Shown here: positions 48,502 through 60,735 of the stretch, piece by piece
Layout: each line of letters opens with the position of its first letter
Position numbering within the stretch: position 1 is the stretch's first letter
Assembly (NCBI GenBank): GCA_001184205.1
Contig: LBMP01000001.1
Coordinates: 1,082,001 to 1,146,000 of the forward strand
Reading direction: 5' to 3'
DNA length: 64,000 nt
DNA from: Desulfocarbo indianensis
GTDB lineage: Bacteria; Desulfobacterota; Desulfarculia; Desulfarculales; Desulfarculaceae
Notes under the pieces: model-generated
Seen by the model: the letters and a program-made list of their open reading frames with translations, nothing else
Database searches by the model: none
What the model was told of the DNA's origin: nothing
Position numbers and translations under genes: made by a program

Positions 48502-48912
48502 TTAAATTGAGCCGTGTTTGTCGGGATTGGAAAGCCACCTGTCTTTTTGCAGGATCACCTGGTCGTGATGGATGATCTTCAACAGGATTCGGCACTTGCT
48601 CTCTGGAGGTAAGCTAAGGGAAACCTTGCATAACGTGACGGGAAGATCAGGACGGAGCATTGTCTTGGCGGATTGCCTGCTGATGCTTTGGCCGCCTTTA
48701 CCGAATTTGAAGACAGACAGGGAATAAACAACAGATAGCGACTTGCTGGAACGGCAGACCGGCTGAATGGTTATTGATCCGTTTGACTCTCTGGTGGTTT
48801 TGATGGTCGCCGACAATTCCGCCGAGTCTTCAGCCAGCGCATAGGCTGGACAAGCTAACCCGTATAACAAAAAAACGCCTGCCAGCGCGATATGGCCAAT
48901 CGATAAAGCCAT
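48502..48912 (-). CDS. CsgC/CsgH-like curli chaperone
   Basis: A 136-residue exported protein (signal peptide FLLYGLACPAYALA). The mature part aligns by eye with E. coli CsgC: GQSISRQSAKTMLRPDLPVTLCKVSLSLPPESKCRI matches the CsgC segment with GQS...QxxTLxLPANQPIALTKLSLNISPDDRVKI, and the end QKDRW matches LSQQW. CsgC and its relative CsgH hold back amyloid assembly of the curlin in the periplasm. Its cysteines (VCRSS, LCKV, SKCRI) parallel the CsgC redox features. It lies just downstream of csgD on the same strand, in a curli locus, which supports the call. Whether it is closer to CsgC or CsgH is unclear. Confidence 0.8.
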   Translation of the reverse strand: MALSIGHIALAGVFLLYGLACPAYALAEDSAELSATIKTTRESNGSITIQPVCRSSKSLSVVYSLSVFKFGKGGQSISRQSAKTMLRPDLPVTLCKVSLSLPPESKCRILLKIIHHDQVILQKDRWLSNPDKHGSI

Positions 48913-48956: not shown

Positions 48957-49646
48957 TTATTTATTGAGCACTATATTTTCATTGGCCCAAATGACGGCTT
49001 TCACGCGATTGGGCACGCCGATTTTTCTATATATATTCTGCACGTGCACCTTCACCGTATAGGGACTGATGAAAAGCTTTTCCGCGATATCGCCGTTACT
49101 GGTGCCTCTGGCGATCAAGGCGAGTATTTCCATCTCGCGCGGAGTTAAATTATTTTTCGCCTCTTGGATGGTCTTTTTTCGAGACCACCTTTCGGTAAGG
49201 AATTTAGACATGGCCTGGCGGGGGAACCACATATGCCCTTCCGCAACGGTTTTAATGGCCTTGATCATGTTTTGGGATGGTTCCCGGTCGTACAAGAGGC
49301 CTCTGACGCCATAAGATATCCATTTTTTCAGGCGCTTCTCGGAGTGGAAATTAAAAATAATGGCGGGGGTGCCATTAAGCGCGCCTAAAAAATTCTCGCA
49401 TTCGTTGGTTAGCTTGTCAATCACGTCGCCGGAATAGTTATCCAGCATCAAAACGTTGGGTTTATCTCTATCGCTGGAAGAAAAAATTTGCATGGATTCG
49501 TCAGCCGGACCTTCTGAGACCTGAAACCCGGCTTGCAGGTTTAGATAAAAACAGATCAGCTCATTGACCATTCTCTGCGAGCCGGTTATGTGCACCTTAA
49601 CGCTAGAGGATTTCGGCGGTTCTCGGCGGCTTTCTAACTTTTTCAC
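48957..49646 (-). CDS. csgD: CsgD-like LuxR-family master regulator of curli
   Basis: A 229-residue protein like CsgD. The N-terminal receiver-like half (VHITGSQRMVNELICFYL, NVLMLDNYSGDV, YGVRGLLYDREPSQNMIKAIKTVAEGHMWFPRQAMSKFL) resembles CsgD, including the GHMWFPR segment (CsgD has GELWLPR). The C-terminal HTH is LTPREMEILALIARGTSNGDIAEKLFISPYTVKVHVQNIYRKIG. It would activate the csgE-to-curlin operon. It starts at GTG with GGAAGAG just upstream. It lies between the EF-hand gene and the chaperone gene, 44 bases before the latter, so the two may be co-transcribed. A second CsgD-like gene lies at 61709. Confidence 0.88.
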   Translation of the reverse strand: MKKLESRREPPKSSSVKVHITGSQRMVNELICFYLNLQAGFQVSEGPADESMQIFSSSDRDKPNVLMLDNYSGDVIDKLTNECENFLGALNGTPAIIFNFHSEKRLKKWISYGVRGLLYDREPSQNMIKAIKTVAEGHMWFPRQAMSKFLTERWSRKKTIQEAKNNLTPREMEILALIARGTSNGDIAEKLFISPYTVKVHVQNIYRKIGVPNRVKAVIWANENIVLNK

Positions 49647-49924: not shown

Positions 49925-50518
49925 TCACTCTTGATACTTTTTTTCCGCTTGCGGCTTATTAGATTCCTGCTGCATGATTTTCATGGCTTGATCGTCCGAT
50001 TGTTGGAGATCTTTTTTAAGCTGCATGCGCTTGGCCCGCTCCATGGCCACCCTTCTATGCTTCAATATGATTTCTTCCATGGTGACGTGTCCGTCATTGT
50101 CCAAGTCTTTGTTTCTGAAATTCTTGGTTTCAAATGAGAGATGTTCTGCAAGGCTTATTTTCCCGTCCCCATCGGTGTCAAGCGCGGGGGACAAAGAATA
50201 TTGCACCGAAACGATGGCCGCGAATTCTTCGTCGCTCATGGTAATCGCGCCGGATTCCCGCAATTTGCTGACCCGCTCCATTTCCCGCTCGGATATTTCC
50301 CGGGAGGTGATATAGCCATCGCCGTTCAGATCATTGGTGGTGAACACGCCCTTTTCCCAGGCCAGATGCTCGGCAAGGCTCACCTTGCCGTCGCCGTTCA
50401 AATCCACCTTTTCCGGCACGCGCAAACCGGATGCGGGGGGGCGATCCTCGGCGCCCACCACGCCGGCCAAACTCGCCAGCAAAAAGCAAAAAAGCAAGGT
50501 CGAAATTAATTTGGACAT
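49925..50518 (-). CDS. Exported EF-hand calcium-binding protein in the curli locus
   Basis: A 197-residue protein with a signal peptide (LLFCFLLASLAGVVGA) and four EF-hand loops: DLNGDGKVSLAEH, DLNGDGYITSREI, DTDGDGKISLAEH and DLDNDGHVTMEEI, each with the Asp-x-Asn/Asp-x-Asp-Gly pattern. A charged Gln/Lys tail follows. It should bind calcium in the periplasm or at the cell surface. It lies right after the CsgA-like gene with the same orientation and a strong hairpin between them, so it is probably part of the curli regulon. I know of no standard curli gene with this architecture; a role in calcium-dependent fibre assembly is a hypothesis. Confidence 0.84.
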   Translation of the reverse strand: MSKLISTLLFCFLLASLAGVVGAEDRPPASGLRVPEKVDLNGDGKVSLAEHLAWEKGVFTTNDLNGDGYITSREISEREMERVSKLRESGAITMSDEEFAAIVSVQYSLSPALDTDGDGKISLAEHLSFETKNFRNKDLDNDGHVTMEEIILKHRRVAMERAKRMQLKKDLQQSDDQAMKIMQQESNKPQAEKKYQE

Positions 50519-50578
50519 TTTGCTCACTATCCTTTTCAACTAAGTTCGCTGCGCGTCCTATCCGTCTTTTTGGGTTTG

Positions 50579-50640: not shown

Positions 50641-51492
50641 CTACCGGCAACCGGCGCCAGCGCAAGTGGGCAGGGAGGCGGTGAAGCAATTGTTGGCCTG
50701 GGTCACGTAGGCCGAGTGCACGCCGCCGCCAGCCTGGATGATCACGCTGTCGTTCATGTAGCCGATCTGATTCACGACGGCGTTGTTGTAGCCGCCGAGG
50801 GAGCAAAAGCCATCGGTCTGGGAGACCAGGCTGAAGTTGCCGAAGCCGCCCTGATAGACTTGGGCGTTGTTGATGCCGCCGTCCTGCAGGATGTCGTTGT
50901 AGTTCAGGTCGCCGATCTGGGTCACGGAGGCCACGTTGACGCCATAGCCGTCTTGACGGATGAAGCTGGCGTTGAAGGAACCGGACTGGGTCACGCCGGC
51001 CGTATCGTTCGTGCCGGTCTGCCAAATCGAGGACCAGTTGCCGTCGCCCCACTGGTACACGTAGGCGGCGTGGGCGCTGTAGCCGTAGTGGCCATCGTTC
51101 TGGTAGATGAGGGAGGTGTTCTGGTAGTAGTCCTCAGTGAACATGGGGAAGTTGAGGCTCTTCACGTAGGGGGCGGTAAACTGGAACGCCGTGTAGCTCA
51201 GGTAGCAGCAAGGCGAATTCTGGTACACGGAGGCCAGGTCCGATCCGAAGTCGGTTCCCTGATCGATCCAGGAGAAGCTCTGGTCGTTGAGCTGGGTGAC
51301 GAAGGCGGTCGAGAAGGCGCCGGTTTGTTCGATCATGCTCTCGTTGCGGGCGTTGAAGGGCTGCCACACATAGGTCTCAGCCGCGCCCACCACGACCTTC
51401 CAAGGCTGCCAATAGTTGGCGGTGTTGGCGAAAGCGGTGCCAGCCATCAACAGGACGGCCAGGAGGGAAAGTCCGAATAGTATTCTCTTCAT
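50641..51492 (-). CDS. csgA: CsgA-like curlin, major amyloid subunit candidate
   Basis: A 283-residue exported protein (signal MKRILFGLSLLAVLLMAGTAFA) with repeated curlin strands of the type QxGxxN: SVTQIGDLNYNDILQDGGINNAQVYQ, FSLVSQ, AVVNQIGYMNDSVIIQ, SAYVTQ. An N-terminal half has more aromatic residues (AETYVWQPFN, SPCCYLSYTAFQF) than E. coli CsgA. Unlike typical CsgA it has six cysteines, including CC and a C-terminal TCAGAGC. ATG 51492 has AAGGAG seven bases upstream. It follows the second curlin by 123 bases. Roles as major or minor subunit are inferred from order. Confidence 0.8.
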   Translation of the reverse strand: MKRILFGLSLLAVLLMAGTAFANTANYWQPWKVVVGAAETYVWQPFNARNESMIEQTGAFSTAFVTQLNDQSFSWIDQGTDFGSDLASVYQNSPCCYLSYTAFQFTAPYVKSLNFPMFTEDYYQNTSLIYQNDGHYGYSAHAAYVYQWGDGNWSSIWQTGTNDTAGVTQSGSFNASFIRQDGYGVNVASVTQIGDLNYNDILQDGGINNAQVYQGGFGNFSLVSQTDGFCSLGGYNNAVVNQIGYMNDSVIIQAGGGVHSAYVTQANNCFTASLPTCAGAGCR

Positions 51493-51615
51493 AAGAAATC
51501 TCCTTTTTTTCATTCATGTTTCGTTGGTTTTGGTTGTTAGCGGTTGTTATGTCCTTGCCTCTTCATCGACCCTCAAGCAGAGGCATCACCTCCTTTCCCC
51601 TTGAACTCGTTCCGG

Positions 51616-52638
51616 CTATTTGTGGGTAATCGTGACGTTGGCATACACTTCGTGGCCGAACTGCTTCACGACTACCGGCACGTTCGCGTTGTGGACCAGG
51701 TTGGCCACGTTGCCGTCGCCGAATTGCTGGATCCACGCCAGGTTGGACACGGTCTGGACAATGGAGGCCTGGTTGGCGTTGCCCAGTTGATCGATGAAGG
51801 CGTCTCCGCCGCTGGTCAGCTGGTTGATCGAAGCCCAGTTGTAACTGCCGAACTGGTTGATGCCGGCCAGATTGCCGCTGCCCACCAGTTGGCTGATGCT
51901 GGCGATATTCCCGGTGGCGGCCCAATAAGAGGAGCCTTGGGTGATGCTCCCCACTTGATGCCAGCCGCCCTGCTCGATGAGCGCCCGGTTGAAAAGTCCG
52001 TTTTGCTCCAGGTCGGCCGAGTTGCTCCAGCCGGTCTGCTCGAGACCCGCGGCGTTGCCGTGGCCGCGTTGTTGGATGGCGGCCTTGTGGCCCCAGTCGC
52101 CCTGGGCGAGATTGGCGCAGTTGTTATCGCCCGCCTGGCTGAGATTCGCGTCCTGCTTGACGCCGGCCTGATCGATGAAGGCCGTGTTGTCGTCGCCCTG
52201 CTGCTTGATGGCGGCCCAGTTGCCGCTGGACAACCCAGCCACGCGCAGCTGCGGCGTTCCCTGCGTTATCTCGGCGAGATTGCCTTGGCCCTTCTGCTCG
52301 AGACCCGCGCGGTTGTACTCGCCTTCCTGGGTCACCCGCGCCTGGTTGTGCGTCAGCCCTTCGCCGGTCTGCTCAATGGAAAGCTCCTGGTTTGAGCCCC
52401 ATTGGCGGACCGTGGCGAAATTCTTGCCCAGCTCCTGGCTGATCTCGGACACGTTGAAGCTTCCGTTTTGTTCGACCAGGGCAAAGGCGCTCTCGCCGCT
52501 TTGCTCTATGCGCGATTGATTGACGGCGTAGCCGAGGCTTGTCTCCGGCGTATCCGCCGCGGCGGGCAACGCCAAACCCGTCGTGAGAGCGCAGAGCATC
52601 AATACGGTGGAAACGAGCCGCCTTTGATTTCTTTTCAT
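51616..52638 (-). CDS. csgB: Long CsgB-like curlin with about twenty half-repeats
   Basis: A 340-residue exported curlin (signal STVLMLCALTTGLALPAAA), more than twice the E. coli CsgA/CsgB length. From residue 35 it has imperfect 11-residue half-repeats of the form xGxxNxAxIxQ, for example QKGQGNLAEITQ, QRGHGNAAGLEQTGWSNSADLEQ and QFGSYNWASINQ, roughly eleven full 22-residue turns. The end VVVKQFGHEVYANVTITHK is charged and non-repeat, as in CsgB anchoring tails. It lies 13 bases after csgG and has an excellent GGGAGGGAAG site. CsgB nucleates CsgA; which curlin is the nucleator here is inferred. Confidence 0.82.
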   Translation of the reverse strand: MKRNQRRLVSTVLMLCALTTGLALPAAADTPETSLGYAVNQSRIEQSGESAFALVEQNGSFNVSEISQELGKNFATVRQWGSNQELSIEQTGEGLTHNQARVTQEGEYNRAGLEQKGQGNLAEITQGTPQLRVAGLSSGNWAAIKQQGDDNTAFIDQAGVKQDANLSQAGDNNCANLAQGDWGHKAAIQQRGHGNAAGLEQTGWSNSADLEQNGLFNRALIEQGGWHQVGSITQGSSYWAATGNIASISQLVGSGNLAGINQFGSYNWASINQLTSGGDAFIDQLGNANQASIVQTVSNLAWIQQFGDGNVANLVHNANVPVVVKQFGHEVYANVTITHK

Positions 52639-52651
52639 TTCTCTTCCCTCC

Positions 52652-54346
52652 CTAACGGGCGATGTTTACGGGTTCCCACTTTTTCAAGGTCACGTTTTCC
52701 ACGGTTATGGCTTGGGCCTCCTGGCCGTCAGCCACGGCCGGCGTCGGAGTGGAGAACAGGAAGCTGGTATCAACCGGCTTGGCCTGGTCGGCCTCGGGGG
52801 GTGCGACATTGGATTCAAGACCCGAGGGTGCGGCCTTGGTTTGATTTTCCGGGGCGGTGGTTTCCTGGCTCCTGCGTTCAGCCTCCAGGCGGGCGGCTTC
52901 TTCGGCTTGGGCCTTGCGCTCAGCCTCCAGGCGGGCCGCCTCTTCTTCCTGGGCCTTGCGTTCGGCCTCAATGCGGGCGGCCTCTTCTTCCTGGGCCTTA
53001 CGCTCGGCCTCCAAGCGCGCGGCCTCCATCTCCTGGGCTTTGCGTTCAGCCTCCAGCCTGGCTTCTTCCTCTTGCTTGGCCATCAACTCGGCTTCCAAGC
53101 GGGCGGCCTCCATCTCCTGAGCTTGGCGCTCGGCTTCCAGCCTGGCCTTTTCCTCGGCCTCCTGACGGGCCGCCTCTTCCTCCTGGGCCTTGCGTTCGGC
53201 CTCCAGGCGGGCTTGCTCTTCCTGCTGGGCTTTTTGCTCGGCTTCCCAACGGGCGGCCTCCATCTCCTGGGCCTTGCGCTCTGCCTCCAATTTGGCCTCT
53301 TCGATCTCCTTCAGCCTGCGCTGGGCTTCTTCGCGCTCGGCCGTGAGCTGGGCCTCTTTTTCCGCTTGCTGGCGGGCGGTCTCGGCGCGCTCGGCTTCGT
53401 ATTCGGCTTCCGCCTGGCGAAGCTTTTCGTAAGCGGCTTCGTCAATGGCGGCCTTGCGGTCGGCGGCGGCCTGGGCCGCGGCGGCCTTGAGCTCGGCGTG
53501 GATGGCGACCCGCTGGGTCTCTTCCTGGTAGTCCTTGATGACCGGAGAGTTGATGTCCTCGGGATTGTTCAGGTACCAGAGCCCGTCCAGCACGCCTTCC
53601 ACGACCATGGCGATGACGGCTTTTTCGATGGCGGCGGCCACGCACATTTGAACAGGCTCGTTATGGCTGTACCCGGCCTCGATCTCCAGAAGCTTCTTGA
53701 AGGTAAGGAAGCGATACAGGCCCACGTCCACTTCATGGGAAAGAATGGTCTTGGTGGTGGACACGGACTTGAGAATGCGGCCGGTCCGCACGTCCACCGC
53801 CCGCAGATGCACGGTGACCTGATCCTGGCGATACTGCATGGAGCCGCCCAACCCCCAGTATTTGGCGCCGAAGCCGCCGGTCATGGTGTTGGTCTCGTAG
53901 GCGGTGATGCCGCCCTGCAGGATCACGTTGGCCCACTCCAGGGGCGGCAGGCCGTTGGCGTTTTTTTCGCCCTCGCCGTTGCGCTTGGAAGCGCTGATGA
54001 TCTTGCGTTCGGTCAAGAGGCTTTGCAGCCCGTCGCGCTCCACCGGGATGAACCAGTTGGATTTGTTCAGGGCCTCGAGCAGCATGTTGACCGCGCCCTG
54101 GGTCACCGCCGTGGAGAACGAGCTCACGTTGGGCAGCGGCTTGTACTGACCGGTCTGGTCGCGGAAGTTGTAAACGCTGACCCGGATCTTGCCCTTGGGC
54201 GCGGGCAGTGAAGTCAGTTGTTTGTAGGTATGACTTATTCTGGATACCTGTGGCGGCATGATGTCGAACTCATCCATAGGCATGCCGCAGGCGGATATCC
54301 CGGCCAGCATAACGAGCAGGCCCACGATTTTCAGCTTCTTCGCCAT
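52652..54346 (-). CDS. csgG: CsgG curli secretion pore fused to a long coiled coil
   Basis: A 564-residue lipoprotein (signal with lipobox GISAC, Cys20). Residues 20-275 are a CsgG core: [76 protein letters not shown] and [16 protein letters not shown] match E. coli CsgG closely. The family forms a nine-subunit outer-membrane channel. E. coli CsgG ends near 277 residues; here a charged helix continues for about 220 residues, mostly 14-residue heptad pairs [14 protein letters not shown], then a Pro-rich tail. The eyelet region reads [11 protein letters not shown], so E. coli Tyr51 and Asn55 are replaced and one residue is inserted while Phe56 remains. ATG 54346 has AAGGGG upstream. Confidence 0.9.
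52862..53303 (-). repeat. 42-bp tandem repeats encoding the CsgG coiled coil
   Basis: About ten copies of a 42-base unit coding for [14 protein letters not shown]-like 14-residue repeats, with one short copy of eight residues. Such direct repeats are prone to copy-number change by recombination. Confidence 0.85.
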
Positions 54347-54388: not shown

Positions 54389-54820
54389 TTAAGGAATGGT
54401 CGGGATGGAGATGACGGTGGTGTTATTGTTCGGAACGTCCACCACGGTGACTTCCAGTTGGGTTATTTGGTCGTTGATGGTCACCGTGAAATCGCCCACC
54501 GTAAAAGTTCCGTTGGGCAATTCCGTTGATTCTCCGAAGGCCTTCTCAACGATTCTGGATGACAAAAGGGATAATATGTTGCGGTTTAAAGTCTCCCTGA
54601 AGTCATCGAGACGGGACAACTCGTTGCTGGTGGACTCCGGATCTTTGTTGTTGTCTTGGGCCTGAGCATTGCCGAGAAGATAAGCGCCGTTTAGCGGATT
54701 GCCCCCCACAAAGCTCGGGTTGACAGGCTCCCATATCAGCTCGGTGGCAATCGCTTGGCTGGTAGTGAATAGCGCCAAGATGGCCAAGGCGATTATGCAG
54801 AAAGATATTTTTATATTCAT
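54389..54820 (-). CDS. csgF: CsgF curli assembly protein
   Basis: A 143-residue exported protein (signal IKISFCIIALAILALFTTSQAIA) with the CsgF signature right after the cleavage site: WEPVNPSFVGGNPLNGAYLLGNAQAQDNNKDP, as E. coli CsgF has [27 protein letters not shown]. CsgF lines the CsgG channel and passes the nucleator to the surface. The C-terminal half forms a beta-rich neck. ATG 54820 has GGGGAGG six bases upstream. It lies between csgE (19 bases) and csgG (42 bases) in one operon. Confidence 0.94.
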   Translation of the reverse strand: MNIKISFCIIALAILALFTTSQAIATELIWEPVNPSFVGGNPLNGAYLLGNAQAQDNNKDPESTSNELSRLDDFRETLNRNILSLLSSRIVEKAFGESTELPNGTFTVGDFTVTINDQITQLEVTVVDVPNNNTTVISIPTIP

Positions 54821-54839
54821 TTGAATCCTCCCCAGGATA

Positions 54840-55304
54840 TTAGTAACCATCGCCTTCAAGATCGTTACTTTTTTGAAATCTTTTTATTATTTCTCGTTGA
54901 AATAAGTGTCTGTGAACCTCGCTTACCGCCTGGTTGATCACGTCCTCTATCACCACGTTTCTGGCGGAGAGGAACTGCTGAAAAACCATGTCATCATCCA
55001 CAGTTATAAAGACTAGGCTGCCCCATTGCGGGTTGAATCTCTCGGTAATGACAATGGTGAATTCCGTAACGTCTGCGGGAGGAACCCAGGCGGCCACGAA
55101 ATCTTTATAAAAGTTTTGTCCCATGGGAGTTATGGTGTGATTAAGCAGCAGGCCTTCGCTCAGCAGGTCATCGTAAGACTTTTGCACCCCTTGGGAGAAA
55201 GCCAACGAGTTAAGGCATAATAGTCCAAACAAAGTAATTGTTAAAAGGGAGCACGCCTTCAGGCATTTATTGCTTGCATTATGATGAAGCAATGTGTATT
55301 TCAT
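54840..55304 (-). CDS. csgE: CsgE curli secretion adaptor
   Basis: A 154-residue exported protein (signal SLLTITLFGLLCLNSLAFS). Family pattern: LLSEGLLLNHTITPMGQNFYKDFVAAW, then FTIVITERFNPQWGSLVFITVDDDMVFQQFL, matching E. coli CsgE ([23 protein letters not shown] and ERPSARWGSWITITV). CsgE caps the periplasmic face of CsgG and brings curlin to the channel. It is the first gene of the csgEFG-curlin operon. The ribosome site is weak (AAGAA). Confidence 0.93.
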   Translation of the reverse strand: MKYTLLHHNASNKCLKACSLLTITLFGLLCLNSLAFSQGVQKSYDDLLSEGLLLNHTITPMGQNFYKDFVAAWVPPADVTEFTIVITERFNPQWGSLVFITVDDDMVFQQFLSARNVVIEDVINQAVSEVHRHLFQREIIKRFQKSNDLEGDGY

Positions 55305-55781
55305 TAGACATATTCTTTCTTGTTGCCTGATGCCATAATATTTACCGATAAAACCTTACGGTGTTTTAGCGACATGTTATAGTTGGAAAGCGGATTAGGA
55401 CAATACTTGGCGCTGACTAAAAGAGCTAATACCGAATCGTGAGAGGCTGGCGCTTTAGATAAGAATCAGGTAGGCGTTGGCTAGGAAAAAATGACACCAA
55501 GCATGCGGCGCATGATGAGCCGTCTAATACATTTTCATGAGAGACGGGGACGCGCCGGCCGGCGGCGGGGGGATGGAACTCATTGCAACCGTTCATGAAA
55601 AATACCGCGGCCCCATGGTTTAGTGGGAAAGGGCAGAAGCCGGTCCCGGGTGCGGGGGCCGGGACGGGCCTTCCGAGCGGCTTTTCCCTATCGCGGCCAC
55701 ATATGATAATGTGGGGGCGGCGGCAGGCCTCGGCGGAATGGGCCTTGTCAACGGCTATTTATGGCAAGGGTGCTTGTTTTT
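55305..55781. other. Intergenic region between curli and the sigma/protease operon
   Basis: The 477 bases hold no supported gene. The left part is AT-rich and is probably the csgE promoter; the right part is GC-rich and probably promotes the four-gene operon. Open frames over 55583-55780 lack starts or families. Confidence 0.4.
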
Positions 55782-56267
55782 ATGGGCCGCAGAAAAGGCA
55801 AACGCAAGCCTCCCCCGGATTCCCGGGAAACGGTGGGCCGGCAGAGCCTCCTGGACAAGCTGGCGGAGCAAAGGGGGCGGGGAGGGAACTCCATACGTTT
55901 CCTGCCGCTCCTGGCCTGGCCGGAAAGGGGGCTTTTCGTGGGGGCGAAAGACGCCAGCCTGCGGCAATTCACCCAAGGCGGTTTTCACGCGCGGTCAGGG
56001 GAAGCGCCCGGCTCCCATCCCATCTTCGTCTTGCAGCAGCTCGGGAATCTCGCCCACCGGGTTTGCCCCTGCTCCACCAGGAAGTACGCGAACAAGCGGG
56101 CCATCCCCCAGGGATGCGTGCTGGAGCATACTCTCTATGTGGTGCGCGAGCGCACCTACCTGGTGGAGGACTGCGTTTTCCCGGTTCCGCGGGACAAAAA
56201 TTTTTTATGGAGTCTTCGCTATTGGGGACGGGTGCCGGAGTCCCGGCTGGAGACGGAAGAAGAATAG
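55782..56267 (+). CDS. Small protein of unknown fold, first gene of a four-gene operon
   Basis: About 161 residues, basic N-terminus (MGRRKGKRKPPPDSRE). The C-terminal part has a run of beta-like segments: HPIFVLQQLGN, HRVCPCSTRKYANKRAIPQGC, LEHTLYVVRERTYLVEDCVFPVPRDKNFLW. The pattern of a first strand, a V-x-P-x-S/T segment and a late Tyr-leu-Val-Glu-Asp/Pro segment weakly recalls PemK/MazF folds, but I cannot confirm this. Its stop is directly followed by the sigma-factor ATG (TAGATG), so translation is coupled. The start is uncertain: ATG 55782 has AAGGG upstream, ATG 55761 does not. The function is unknown. Confidence 0.7.
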   Translation: MGRRKGKRKPPPDSRETVGRQSLLDKLAEQRGRGGNSIRFLPLLAWPERGLFVGAKDASLRQFTQGGFHARSGEAPGSHPIFVLQQLGNLAHRVCPCSTRKYANKRAIPQGCVLEHTLYVVRERTYLVEDCVFPVPRDKNFLWSLRYWGRVPESRLETEEE

Positions 56268-57377
56268 ATGTCACTCGTCGCAAGCGCCCACGCGGACTTC
56301 CTTAATTGGTTGTCCAGTGAGGACTGCGTGCCGTGGCTCCGGCGGCAAGCGCGGGAACTGCTTTTCCGCGTCTCCGGGCTCCGCCTGCCGCGCGAACTTT
56401 GGCCTTATGGAGACCCTAGAGGCATGTCGGGAAGCGAACTGGATATGGCTTCGGATGAGGTGGCCAACGATTTCTGGATTTTCGTCCAGGACGTCCTGCG
56501 CGGCCGGAGCGAGGAACTGCCGCCCGAGGTCCTGGCCGGGCGGGAGGCCAGGCCGCGGCTCCTGGGGGCTTACCTGCGCAATGCCTTCATCAACCATCTG
56601 CGCGGCCAGGTCAGGCGCAAGGAGATCAGCCCGCTGCGCCATCTTTACCGGCGTCTGCGCGAGACGCTTAACAACGCGCCGGATTTTTACTATCGCGCGG
56701 CTCCCAACATGGCCTACTACAGCATGGAGAAATCTGCCCAGACCCATACGGCGCGCCTGGCCCTGGGAGCCGGCTCCTACCGCGCTTGGCCCTCGCCCTG
56801 CGAACTGGTATCGGAGCGGCAACTGGCCAGATTCAAAGGGGAAGACCTTTGCTCACTGGCCGCCCGGTTTTGGCAAGAAGCCGCCGCGCGGTTGGGAGGC
56901 GCTTATTTTCTGCCCATTTGGGAGCTGGCCGCCTATCTGGCGGATCACTACGGTTTTCTGAGCGCCGGCGAGCAGCGCTTCAGAGAGGAGTGCCAAGCGG
57001 AGATGGCCGTTAGCGAACCCACGGCGACGCCCGAGACGGGCGGCCTTGCCATGCTGGCGACCCAGCTGGTCGAGAGCTGGCCGCCCATCCGGCGCAAGGT
57101 TTTTTATTTGGCGCTGGATTCCTCGGAAACGACCTATCGGAACATCGCGGAACTGGCGGGCCTTTCCGGCGCCAGCCACGCCAAATACCACATTGACCGC
57201 GCCTGCCAGCAATTGGCCGATTTCTGCGAGACCTGGCCGGGAGTGGCGCCGCCGCCTTCGGACCGGAATTTTTGGGCCGAGTTTCTCTTGATCACGGCTG
57301 GGGTTTGTAAAAACCTGACCCAGGAGCGTCCTTCAGGGTTGAAAGGCGACCAACCTCAACCAAAGGACGGATCATGA
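56268..57377 (+). CDS. ECF-like RNA polymerase sigma factor
   Basis: A 369-residue protein, longer than the usual 180-200-residue ECF sigma factor. Residues 64-118 resemble sigma region 2, with DEVANDFWIFVQDVL and then LGAYLRNAFINHLRGQVRRKEIS (region 2.4-like DNA contact helix). Residues 262-320 resemble region 4: ATQLVESWPPIRRKVFYLALDSSETTYRNIAELAGLSGASHAKYHIDRACQQLADF, a helix-turn-helix. Between them is a long insertion of about 140 residues. It would recruit RNA polymerase to unknown promoters. It overlaps the next gene by ATGA. The family fit is moderate and no classical ECF consensus was tested. Confidence 0.72.
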   Translation: MSLVASAHADFLNWLSSEDCVPWLRRQARELLFRVSGLRLPRELWPYGDPRGMSGSELDMASDEVANDFWIFVQDVLRGRSEELPPEVLAGREARPRLLGAYLRNAFINHLRGQVRRKEISPLRHLYRRLRETLNNAPDFYYRAAPNMAYYSMEKSAQTHTARLALGAGSYRAWPSPCELVSERQLARFKGEDLCSLAARFWQEAAARLGGAYFLPIWELAAYLADHYGFLSAGEQRFREECQAEMAVSEPTATPETGGLAMLATQLVESWPPIRRKVFYLALDSSETTYRNIAELAGLSGASHAKYHIDRACQQLADFCETWPGVAPPPSDRNFWAEFLLITAGVCKNLTQERPSGLKGDQPQPKDGS

Positions 57378-58606
57378 ATTTAAAAGTGGACTCTTGGCAA
57401 ATTCAGCAGGCTTGGGAACTGGCCTGGCGGACCCGTTTCTGCCCTCCCGACCAACTGATCACGGCCGACGACCTGCCGGCCGAGGCCGTGGCGCACCTGA
57501 AATCCTGCCCCTCCTGCCGGCGGCGGGGGGAGCTTGGCAAGGCGGGCGAGGCCGGGGAAGGGCTTCCCGGCCTGGCGCGGCCGCTGGCCAAGCCAGAGGA
57601 CGCCGGGGAGGAGCTCAAGCCCGGCCAGATCAGAAGCCTCGCTCCCGGTCTGGCCGGCTGGGGCCCCAAGCACAGGTATTACGATCCGCCGGTGGTCTTG
57701 ATTCTCGAACTCTCGCCAAGCCTGCCCAACGGGGTCCTGGTGGCCCAGACCTATCACGACCCGGCCCTGATGGGGCAGGGCGACGTGGCCCTAGGCCGCT
57801 TCAGGTTCGCGGAGCCTTGGAACCTTTACACGCTGCACCGCGAAAACCTGGGACGCCTGCATGGCGAGGTCGACCAGCCAACCGTGGAGCTGGTATGGGA
57901 GGCCGGCCAAGAGGCCGCGCCCCAGGAGCCGGAATGGTCGCCCCAATTCCTTTTTCGCCAGATGGAGCTGGAGGTGGCCTGCTTCTTTTCGGCGGGAGCC
58001 GTGCTCTCCCTGATGGCCGAATACGAAAACGCGGCGGCCCTTGCCCAAGGGACCCTTTCCGCCGCCGCCGATTACCCCCTGGCCGATGGCCGCGCCCCGC
58101 TGGGCCCCGCCTGGGAGGGGGAGGCGCCGGAGGATCTGCCGGCTTGCCTGGCCAGACTGGGCCTGAAGGCGCCGCCCGCGGCGCAACTGGCCGAGCCCTC
58201 GGATATATTTTTCCTGGCCGAGCCCTCGGTGCGCAAGATGGCCCTGGCCGCGGCCAACGCCGACAGCGGGCCGCTGCTGCCGGTGATGGCTTTCCGCCTG
58301 CAGGAAGGGCGGCCGGTTTCCTTTGAATATTTGCGGGCGCGGCTGACCGATCTGGTGCGCTCGCCGCAGCTCGTCCTGGGCGGCAAGCTGACTTCCCTCC
58401 TGGAGGGCGGGGAACGCTGGCGGGCGGAGTTCCGCTGGCTGGACGAGGACGGGAAGCTGCTGAAAAGCCGGGCGGGCGGTTTCACTTGCCCCGAAGCGGA
58501 ACCGGCCAGCTTTTGGGCTTCCTTTTCGGTGGACGCCGCCAAGGTGGCTGACGTGGTCCAGAGGTTGTACGTGCGCCTTTTCAGAGTGCAGGAGAAACAG
58601 GCATGA
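57374..58606 (+). CDS. Putative zinc-binding anti-sigma factor (ZAS-like) with a large C-terminal domain
   Basis: A 410-residue cytoplasmic protein with no transmembrane helix. The N-terminus has Cys23, His41, Cys45 and Cys48: HLKSCPSC, i.e. H-x3-C-x2-C, the zinc motif of ZAS anti-sigma factors (RsrA: C-x25-H-x3-C-x2-C; here the first gap is 17). A Pro/Gly-rich linker (residues 60-95) is followed by a domain starting YYDPPVVLILELSPS and a mostly alpha/beta body ending FTCPEAEPASFWASFSVDAAKVADVVQRLYVRLFRV. It could hold the sigma factor and be the target of the protease encoded next. ATGA overlaps join it to the genes on both sides. Confidence 0.68.
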   Translation: MNLKVDSWQIQQAWELAWRTRFCPPDQLITADDLPAEAVAHLKSCPSCRRRGELGKAGEAGEGLPGLARPLAKPEDAGEELKPGQIRSLAPGLAGWGPKHRYYDPPVVLILELSPSLPNGVLVAQTYHDPALMGQGDVALGRFRFAEPWNLYTLHRENLGRLHGEVDQPTVELVWEAGQEAAPQEPEWSPQFLFRQMELEVACFFSAGAVLSLMAEYENAAALAQGTLSAAADYPLADGRAPLGPAWEGEAPEDLPACLARLGLKAPPAAQLAEPSDIFFLAEPSVRKMALAAANADSGPLLPVMAFRLQEGRPVSFEYLRARLTDLVRSPQLVLGGKLTSLLEGGERWRAEFRWLDEDGKLLKSRAGGFTCPEAEPASFWASFSVDAAKVADVVQRLYVRLFRVQEKQA

Positions 58607-60735
58607 ACTTGGCTGGGAGCTGGGATGACATCCTGGTGTATTTGGCCAACCCCCTTTCCAGGGAGCTGGCCCGCGCGCGCCTGGAGCGAATCTCAGGTTC
58701 CTGGCCCAGCGACCTCGCCCAATTGAAGCATGCCATCTCCCTGGCCAGCCAGGGCAATCTCCAGGAGCTGATGCTGATGCACCTTTTGGCCCGCGTGCTC
58801 CTGGCGGGTCAAAAGGCGCCCAAGTGGCTGCGGACCTGGCTGCGGGACAACGAGACCATAAACGTCTTCCTCTCCGAACTGACCCTGCCGAGAGCCCTGA
58901 AGCTCAGGTGGGAGGCGGTGCCGGTTCCCATAGTAAAGATAGACGGGGAGGGGGGCGTTTTCATGATGCTCGTGGCCCCCCTGGAGGGGAGCCCCGGCAT
59001 CTCCATGCCCTATTGGTCCCGCGAGACCCTGGAAAAAGACTGCCTCGAAGCCATTTCTCAGGCGTTTTCAGCCACCTGCAACCTGGGCCTTCCCGCGCTC
59101 AAGCACACCGGCTTTTACTGTTGGCCCTTGCTGGACCCCGGCGGCCCGCCGGTGCAGGGGCGCTCGCTGGGCCTGCCGCTGTCCATCGCCTTGGGACTCT
59201 TGGCCCAAAAGAGCGGCTGGCCAAAAGCCTTGATGGCCACCGGCAGCATGGATGATTCGGGCAAGGTTCTGCCCGTGGGCGGAGTGATGGCCAAGAGCAG
59301 GGTGGCCGCCGAAGCGGGCACCCAACTCTTTCTGTATCCGGACGAGGAAAAAATCGATTTCACGGAGTGGCCGCTGCCGGCGCTGCCGGTCAGCGACCTC
59401 AGGCAGGCCATGACCTTTGCCCAACTGGTCGCCATAGGGCTGCCGGCGGTGTCCAATTTCCGGCTTTACTACAGCTGCCTGCAAAACCCGGCCCTGCTTT
59501 TGGACAATTTCAACAATATCCCGGCTTCGGTGCTGGAATGGGCCAAGGACCGCGGCGTGCTGGAAAAAATCAAATCCACCTGCGGCAGCACCGAGGGCTT
59601 CGCCGGCCTGGTGACCCGGCTGGGCGACAGCAGCCTGCCCCGCAAGCACCGCGAGCTGCTGGCTTCGGTGCTGCGCGAGGAGGATCTGGAATCTTTAGCG
59701 GTCCGCTCCAGCCAAGACGCCTTGATGGTGTCCAATTGGTACAGCTATCTTCTGTCCCTGGCGGATGACCTGCAGAACAGCGATGCGTCCCAGCAGTTGA
59801 AAAGCAAGGCCAAGAAGCTTTTCCGCGATTTCGGCAACAAGATCTACGTGTTTTACCGCACCGAGGATCATCGCGCCTGCTACCGGCGCTTTGACGAGGA
59901 TCTCGGCAATTGCCTCGTCTCCCTGGAGGACGGGCCGCTCAAGGCCATGGTCTCCAATATATGGAGGAAGCAGGGGATTTATCTTCATTTGCCCATCACG
60001 CGCGGCGACGACGTTTCCGTGCGGGTTTTCCTTTCGGAAAAAAACCAGGTGGTGGCGCTGTCGCTGAACGCAGTCAACCTGGACGTCAACCCCGAGGACG
60101 GCAAGGCCGATTTTATTGAAAACTGTTTGCACGCCCTGTACCTGGGCCTGATCAGGGCCGCTTTCGTGATCAACCAGGAGCGGCTGATGGGCCAGGCTCA
60201 GTTGCATGAGGCGCTCTGCCGTTATTTCCGCGCGGTGATCGATTCGGTGCTTTCCAGGGAGATCGTTTTCAGCCAAACCAGCCGGGACTCCATGATGACG
60301 GCCTGCGATTATTATTACGCTTCCTGTTTCATGGGCCTGGAGCCCCCGGAAGCGCTCGCCTGGTCCAGCCAGGAGGCGGGCCGCCATGGCGGCAGGCAAT
60401 CGGAGCTGGCCGGCAAGACCCTGCTGACCGCGCCCAAGGACCACCGCCCCCTGCGCTGGCTGAGCCAATTGGTGTTTTCCTTGGGCATTACTTGCGATTC
60501 CGATTGGCTGTGGCAGAGACTGGCCACCAGCCTGAGCAGGGAGACCCGCTATTCCCTGGGCGGCGCCTTGGATCATTTCATGGGCCTTTGCGTGCTCAGC
60601 TCCTATGGCACCGGGCTTTTTGAAAACGAATTGCCGGCTGACGCCTTGGCCAGCAGCCGGATCGAAGATATTTTGCTGCCCTACCTGATGACCATGGAGT
60701 ACGCCACGGAGAGGGGCTCGGACACCGCCTCCTGA
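58603..60735 (+). CDS. Lon-type (S16) protease-domain protein without an AAA+ module
   Basis: A 710-residue protein. Residues 110-275 resemble the Lon proteolytic domain: GRSLGLPLSIALGLLAQ (Lon DGPSAGIAM), LMATGSMDDSGKVLPVGGVMAKSRVAAEAGTQLFLYPDEEK (Lon [37 protein letters not shown]). Ser188 and Lys231 fall on the catalytic dyad; their spacing (43) equals Lon Ser679 to Lys722. No Walker A or AAA+ region exists. Residues 280-710 are a large helical domain of unknown fold with no SAVED domain that I recognise. It is last of the operon, joined by ATGA. It likely cleaves a partner, most likely the zinc protein, when a signal arrives. Confidence 0.75.
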   Translation: MNLAGSWDDILVYLANPLSRELARARLERISGSWPSDLAQLKHAISLASQGNLQELMLMHLLARVLLAGQKAPKWLRTWLRDNETINVFLSELTLPRALKLRWEAVPVPIVKIDGEGGVFMMLVAPLEGSPGISMPYWSRETLEKDCLEAISQAFSATCNLGLPALKHTGFYCWPLLDPGGPPVQGRSLGLPLSIALGLLAQKSGWPKALMATGSMDDSGKVLPVGGVMAKSRVAAEAGTQLFLYPDEEKIDFTEWPLPALPVSDLRQAMTFAQLVAIGLPAVSNFRLYYSCLQNPALLLDNFNNIPASVLEWAKDRGVLEKIKSTCGSTEGFAGLVTRLGDSSLPRKHRELLASVLREEDLESLAVRSSQDALMVSNWYSYLLSLADDLQNSDASQQLKSKAKKLFRDFGNKIYVFYRTEDHRACYRRFDEDLGNCLVSLEDGPLKAMVSNIWRKQGIYLHLPITRGDDVSVRVFLSEKNQVVALSLNAVNLDVNPEDGKADFIENCLHALYLGLIRAAFVINQERLMGQAQLHEALCRYFRAVIDSVLSREIVFSQTSRDSMMTACDYYYASCFMGLEPPEALAWSSQEAGRHGGRQSELAGKTLLTAPKDHRPLRWLSQLVFSLGITCDSDWLWQRLATSLSRETRYSLGGALDHFMGLCVLSSYGTGLFENELPADALASSRIEDILLPYLMTMEYATERGSDTAS

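Follow-up and report, generated by a model that had tools for sequence, protein, structure and literature searches.

A CsgG curli secretion protein with a long, predicted helical C-terminal tail in Desulfocarbo indianensis

We analysed a window of 64,000 nucleotides from Desulfocarbo indianensis (contig LBMP01000001.1, positions 1,082,001 to 1,146,000) and found in it a CsgG of 564 residues in which a complete secretion pore core is followed by a long charged segment, predicted to be helical, and a disordered end. The protein is encoded on the minus strand by an uninterrupted open reading frame at 52652-54346 (ATG at 54346, stop codon at 52652-52654), and its N-terminus, as read from the sequence, is a lipoprotein signal with the lipobox ISAC and Cys20. 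A CsgG extension of this helical kind appears to be undescribed: we found no published description of a helical CsgG tail in the literature searched, in agreement with the first-pass annotation of this DNA, whose author knew of no such CsgG.

The first-pass annotation had called the core a CsgG secretion pore, and this is borne out by domain, fold and operon; the nonameric secretion channel is presumed by homology. The Pfam domain PF03783 was matched over its complete length at residues 46-258 (E 1.4e-72, 243.9 bits against a curated cut-off of 20.8), and a phmmer search matched residues 10-274 to solved E. coli CsgG in the PDB (E 4e-74). Comparison of the AlphaFold2 model with solved CsgG structures using VIA-align gave Z scores of 17-20, with a Z of 20 to 7brm; 7brm, 6si7 and 4uv3, which show the CsgG fold with its transmembrane strands, were matched at Z 19-20 over 240-252 aligned residues. 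The strict NCBIfam equivalog for the E. coli protein, NF011731, aligned to residues 14-275 with 270.6 bits against a cut-off of 505, a threshold that appears to be set for close relatives of E. coli CsgG.

Within the window, csgG is part of a complete curli operon, in the order csgE, csgF, csgG, two curlin genes, an EF-hand gene, a LuxR-type regulator and a CsgC/CsgH-like gene, all on the minus strand, and the gene order is the same in a genome of a second genus of the family (G010). We assigned csgE at 54840-55304 (PF10627, E 6e-24), csgF at 54389-54859 (PF10614, E 3.9e-36; mature N-terminus TELIWEPVNPSFVGGNP), a CsgA/B-like curlin of 340 aa at 51616-52638 (PF07012, E 7e-33), and a second CsgA/B-like curlin at 50641-51513 (PF07012, E 2.5e-10), whose listed frame begins upstream of the likely ATG. 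Counted from the inner ATG, this second curlin has at residue 43, in its N-terminal segment, a WQPFN similar to the W.P.N found in CsgF and in the CsgG tail, a likeness that is probably due to chance. Further along are a protein with a signal peptide and EF-hands at 49925-50539 (PF13202 and PF13499), which has a counterpart at the equivalent position in G010 and may bind calcium with curli fibres, a regulator with a GerE domain in a CsgD-like position at 48957-49646 (PF00196, E 3e-22), and the CsgC/CsgH-like chaperone at 48502-48912 (PF10610, 30.2 bits with a cut-off of 25). On the other side, a divergent block of plus-strand genes at 55761-60735 adjoins the csg operon; its products (~168-240, 369, 410 and 710 aa) are mostly without known families, the ~710 aa one contains a Lon_C-like stretch, and the block is also found beside the csg operon in G010 (at least partly) and in another genome, G015.

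Using an alignment of 30 sequences, AlphaFold2 predicted a single unbroken helix over residues 268-494 (227 residues; 52865-53545, minus strand), followed by disorder over residues 495-564 (52655-52864, minus strand). The pLDDT was 82-93 at about residues 268-349 and 420-490, 44-77 in the middle of the helix and ~32 over the disordered end. If straight, at 1.5 Å per residue, the helix would measure ~34 nm; the Gram-negative periplasm is usually ~20-30 nm wide, so that this length is at or above its width. The best structural alignments to solved CsgG reach residue 277-284, so that the tail helix is a direct extension of the last helix that is visible in E. coli CsgG. We counted 11 repeat starts spaced 14 residues apart, with one 8-residue step near residues 393-401, the ER/K-type repeats occupying approximately residues 351-490, and TRF reported arrays of 42/84 bp in this part of csgG (scores 108-292) as well as longer periods with scores of up to 371. 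The earlier description of about 220 residues of charged helix with 14-residue repeats after the core was thus accurate; in the end that it called Pro-rich, proline makes up 11% of the disordered residues.

The helix is composed of 28% Glu, 27% Ala, 12% Arg and 10% Gln, the last recurring in most repeats, with 12% strong hydrophobics. Among charge pairs at i/i+3 and i/i+4, 83 were favourable and 10 unfavourable (z 7.4), and the corresponding tail in G010 had 74 and 17 (z 6.3). Such dense opposite-charge pairing with few hydrophobics is the signature of a single alpha-helix. No clear peak at 3.5 residues, as expected of a heptad seam, was present in the window helix; G010 had one when Ala was counted, a period favoured by the 14-residue repeat itself. 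From its sequence, the helix resembles a stable single alpha-helix (ER/K) more than a classical coiled coil, and may nevertheless self-associate. PF03783 was the sole Pfam match in the protein, neither a peptidoglycan-binding domain nor any further known module being recognised in the tail, and a search with the tail sequence against solved structures returned no match at E <= 1.

A frameshift or an assembly artefact as the origin of the tail was ruled out by the single open frame, by the homologous tail of G010 and by selection on the repeats. To measure the latter, we compared codons 14 apart without choosing repeat units, which replaces a dN/dS of 0.15 obtained from pattern-picked repeats and biased by the picking. 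In the window, pS was 0.72, near saturation, and pN was 0.19, with a pN of at least 0.56 at out-of-register control offsets; in the G010 array the same test gave a pS of 0.165 and a pN of 0.116. Since the differences between repeats are mainly synonymous, their amino-acid pattern is maintained by purifying selection. By the same measure, the repeats of the window are old, and the G010 array is younger and looks recently homogenised. Both tails follow one plan, with a segment next to the core (KDYxEExQR...AELK...RKA), repeats, a Pro/Ala-rich linker and the end W.P.NI, and the two arrays have the repeat pattern xR[LM]EAExKAxxE in common. Given the common repeat pattern, core-joining segment and W.P.NI end, a common ancestor of the two genera most likely already had the tail, whose repeats have turned over since. 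We also considered whether the repeats came from elsewhere in the genome, such as from a TolA gene, and rejected this, as a search of that genome found no second copy of them.

These data bear on a reading in which the tail has little or no function, being a helical repeat array that grew by slippage at the C-terminus and was tolerated because it is harmless. The differences in copy number and consensus between the two genera fit it, as do the recently homogenised look of the G010 array and the CsgG of G002, and possibly of G015, which do without the tail. It is nevertheless hard to reconcile with an array that is synonymously saturated and yet conserved in its amino acids, or with a plan and a W.P.NI end kept in both genera, and we regard it as quite unlikely.

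True csgG genes were found in four genomes of the family, and the tail is present in two of them, the window and G010, which belong to two genera. It is absent in G002, and in G015 the CsgG frame ends at a TAA that follows 36 residues of tail and lies 6 bases from the contig end; near relatives (G002, possibly G015) may thus not need the tail for curli. We surveyed samples comprising 80 contig-collection loci, the class and phylum of D. indianensis, the class of G441 (which contains Pseudoalteromonas), the phylum of L014 (titled Nitrospirae), a Bacteroidota class and the genus Pseudoalteromonas, and no other CsgG in them had a helical tail of this kind. For Pseudoalteromonas, 86 CsgG were assessed by open-frame length and 30 loci were read. 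The phylum sample held seven other CsgG, with tails of 23-132 residues. Among the genomes examined, which are samples, so that other cases may exist, the helical tail is restricted to two genera of one family. As a separate observation, the CsgG of L107 (G177:C9:91285-91965) has a 132-residue tail with two copies of a VKPFWxVFWP motif.

Other additions occupy the same place. In the Pseudoalteromonas locus L084, the CsgG (open reading frame from 3956) continues through a short linker into a peptidoglycan-binding domain of the OmpA family (PF00691, E 2e-16), which takes the position of the tail. Open frames of 406-428 aa were found for 6 of the 86 Pseudoalteromonas CsgG, and the five tails that were read look alike; these CsgG-OmpA fusion loci (L084, L152, L160, L163 and L172) occur in a minority of Pseudoalteromonas species. 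CsgG loci from Bacteroidota/Ignavibacteria carry ~190 extra C-terminal residues (L039:4808-5371, L070:4760-5317, L072:4775-5353 and L019:4775-5344), predicted to form an 8-stranded beta-barrel that resembles NspA, OmpA and OmpW; the one such tail that was scanned had no Pfam match. The CsgG C-terminus has thus been extended more than once across lineages, and with a helix, an OmpA domain or a beta-barrel at one place it is a recurrent attachment point. The first-pass annotation had noted that E. coli CsgG ends near 277 residues; this holds for E. coli and for most loci, but the OmpA and beta-barrel extensions show that it is not general.

According to published work, CsgG is a nonamer with CsgE capping its periplasmic base and the CsgF N-terminus lining its barrel (PMC7304575, PMC6957492, PMC4389571), and nine crevices on the outer periplasmic face of CsgG receive the N-termini of CsgA (PMC6957492). 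Chymotrypsin trims 25 residues from the C-terminus of E. coli CsgG and leaves the complex intact (PMC7304575), so this end is exposed. As CsgG is nonameric and its C-terminal part is on the periplasmic side, nine charged rods of ~34 nm would project from the periplasmic base of the pore. Such rods would keep the pore spaced from, or anchored to, the peptidoglycan and could extend beyond it, contact being made by the flexible ends of ~70 residues; they would also form a fence around the entrance to the vestibule, the docking site of CsgE and curlins. A periplasmic rod of this anchoring or spacing kind is the reading we prefer, tentatively and with a little less than even confidence, mainly because some Pseudoalteromonas CsgG carry an OmpA domain at the same place. 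That such fusions exist suggests that some bacteria benefit from a link between CsgG and peptidoglycan; their OmpA domain is analogous, not homologous, to the tail. Against an anchor count the tail's lack of a peptidoglycan-binding domain, its absence in G002 and the low confidence of the modelled mid-helix.

The main rival to the anchoring or spacing rod, which we consider unlikely, is a curlin guide or chaperone, in which the nine charged helices would bind unfolded curlins far from the outer membrane and bring them to the vestibule. FapF has an N-terminal periplasmic coiled coil, in a region essential for secretion and with Gln layers and a length that vary by species, and it has been proposed to act as such a guide (PMC6173795). 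The recurrent Gln of the window helix would be consistent with such a role. CsgA N-termini are recruited on the outer periplasmic face of CsgG (PMC6957492), and the tails could be close to this face. However, most CsgG are without a tail in spite of curlins of many sizes, and the size of CsgG is unaffected by that of CsgA (Dueholm 2012, PMC3521004). The R-h-x-x-h-E trimerisation motif of FapF was moreover found once in the window tail (at 344), which is at chance level, as it was in 11% of shuffles, and is absent in G010.

The end of the tail gives rise to another reading, in which the WEPVN of the CsgG end imitates the start of mature CsgF, a stretch that by homology lines the CsgG barrel, and competes with CsgF or plugs the pore. 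The exact WEPVN is present in both the CsgF and the CsgG end of the window, with a score reached by 11 of 2000 shuffles, W.P.N is also found in the G010 pair, and the N-terminal 27 residues of E. coli CsgF mediate its binding within CsgG (PMC7304575). We nevertheless hold such self-gating to be very unlikely: the likeness was noticed after the fact, the G010 match is not significant (406 of 2000 shuffles), the CsgG end lacks the NPxFxGG that comes next in the CsgF peptide, and the CsgG tail begins on the periplasmic side.

The first-pass annotation had also suggested that the helix links the pore to a source of energy. As TolA or TonB in reverse, the tail would then reach an inner-membrane motor and power curlin export, the energy source of which has been described as unknown (PMC4389571), and the helix is long enough to cross the periplasm. 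We saw no sign of coupling: the tail has no TolA/TonB domain and no inner-membrane anchor, no motor gene was recognised in the operon, and other CsgG proteins work without a tail. This suggestion is therefore not upheld, and we judge energy coupling the least probable of the readings. A broader version, a device of nine rods that spans the periplasm and ties the curli pore to the peptidoglycan or the inner membrane, controlling or powering amyloid export, seems to us improbable, less so than either self-gating or energy coupling. If true, the rod would join the OmpA domain and the beta-barrel as independent additions to the CsgG C-terminus that provide the pore with an envelope partner. How the curli pore is held in the envelope has been little studied, and a natural, selected rod makes anchoring, guiding and coupling testable. 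CsgG variants with a rod, an OmpA domain or a beta-barrel are also natural designs for engineered CsgG nanopores.

We compared the protein with known systems. Domain II of TolA, whose length is 110-335 residues with a median of 192 (PMC12204202), is like the tail a long, charged, Ala-rich helix of similar length, periplasmic in TolA and presumably so here. TolA has an inner-membrane motor helix at its start and domain III at its end, whereas the window CsgG has neither: Pfam gave no TolA domain III, and the N-terminus is a lipoprotein signal rather than a motor-binding transmembrane helix, so kinship with TolA was rejected. Of the "TolA-like coiled coil" proposed at first, the long helix within the length range of TolA domain II stands; the TolA domains do not, and a classical coiled coil is not supported, given the few hydrophobics and the excess of favourable charge pairs. 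FapF, the pore of the Pseudomonas Fap system, likewise secretes amyloid subunits and bears a helical extension in the periplasm, but it is an unrelated 12-stranded barrel and its extension is an N-terminal trimeric coiled coil of ~40 residues. The Bacteroidota/Ignavibacteria CsgG are C-terminally extended like that of the window, their ~190 residues being a predicted outer-membrane barrel where the window has a helix. In the Pseudoalteromonas CsgG-OmpA proteins, as in the window, a linker segment and a further module follow the core; there they are a short linker and a folded OmpA domain, in contrast to a long predicted rod without a known domain. E. coli CsgG (3x2r, 4uv3, 6si7, 7brm) has in common with the window protein the whole core, the lipoprotein signal and an operon with csgE and csgF; it ends at 277 aa, whereas in the window CsgG ~290 further residues prolong its last helix.
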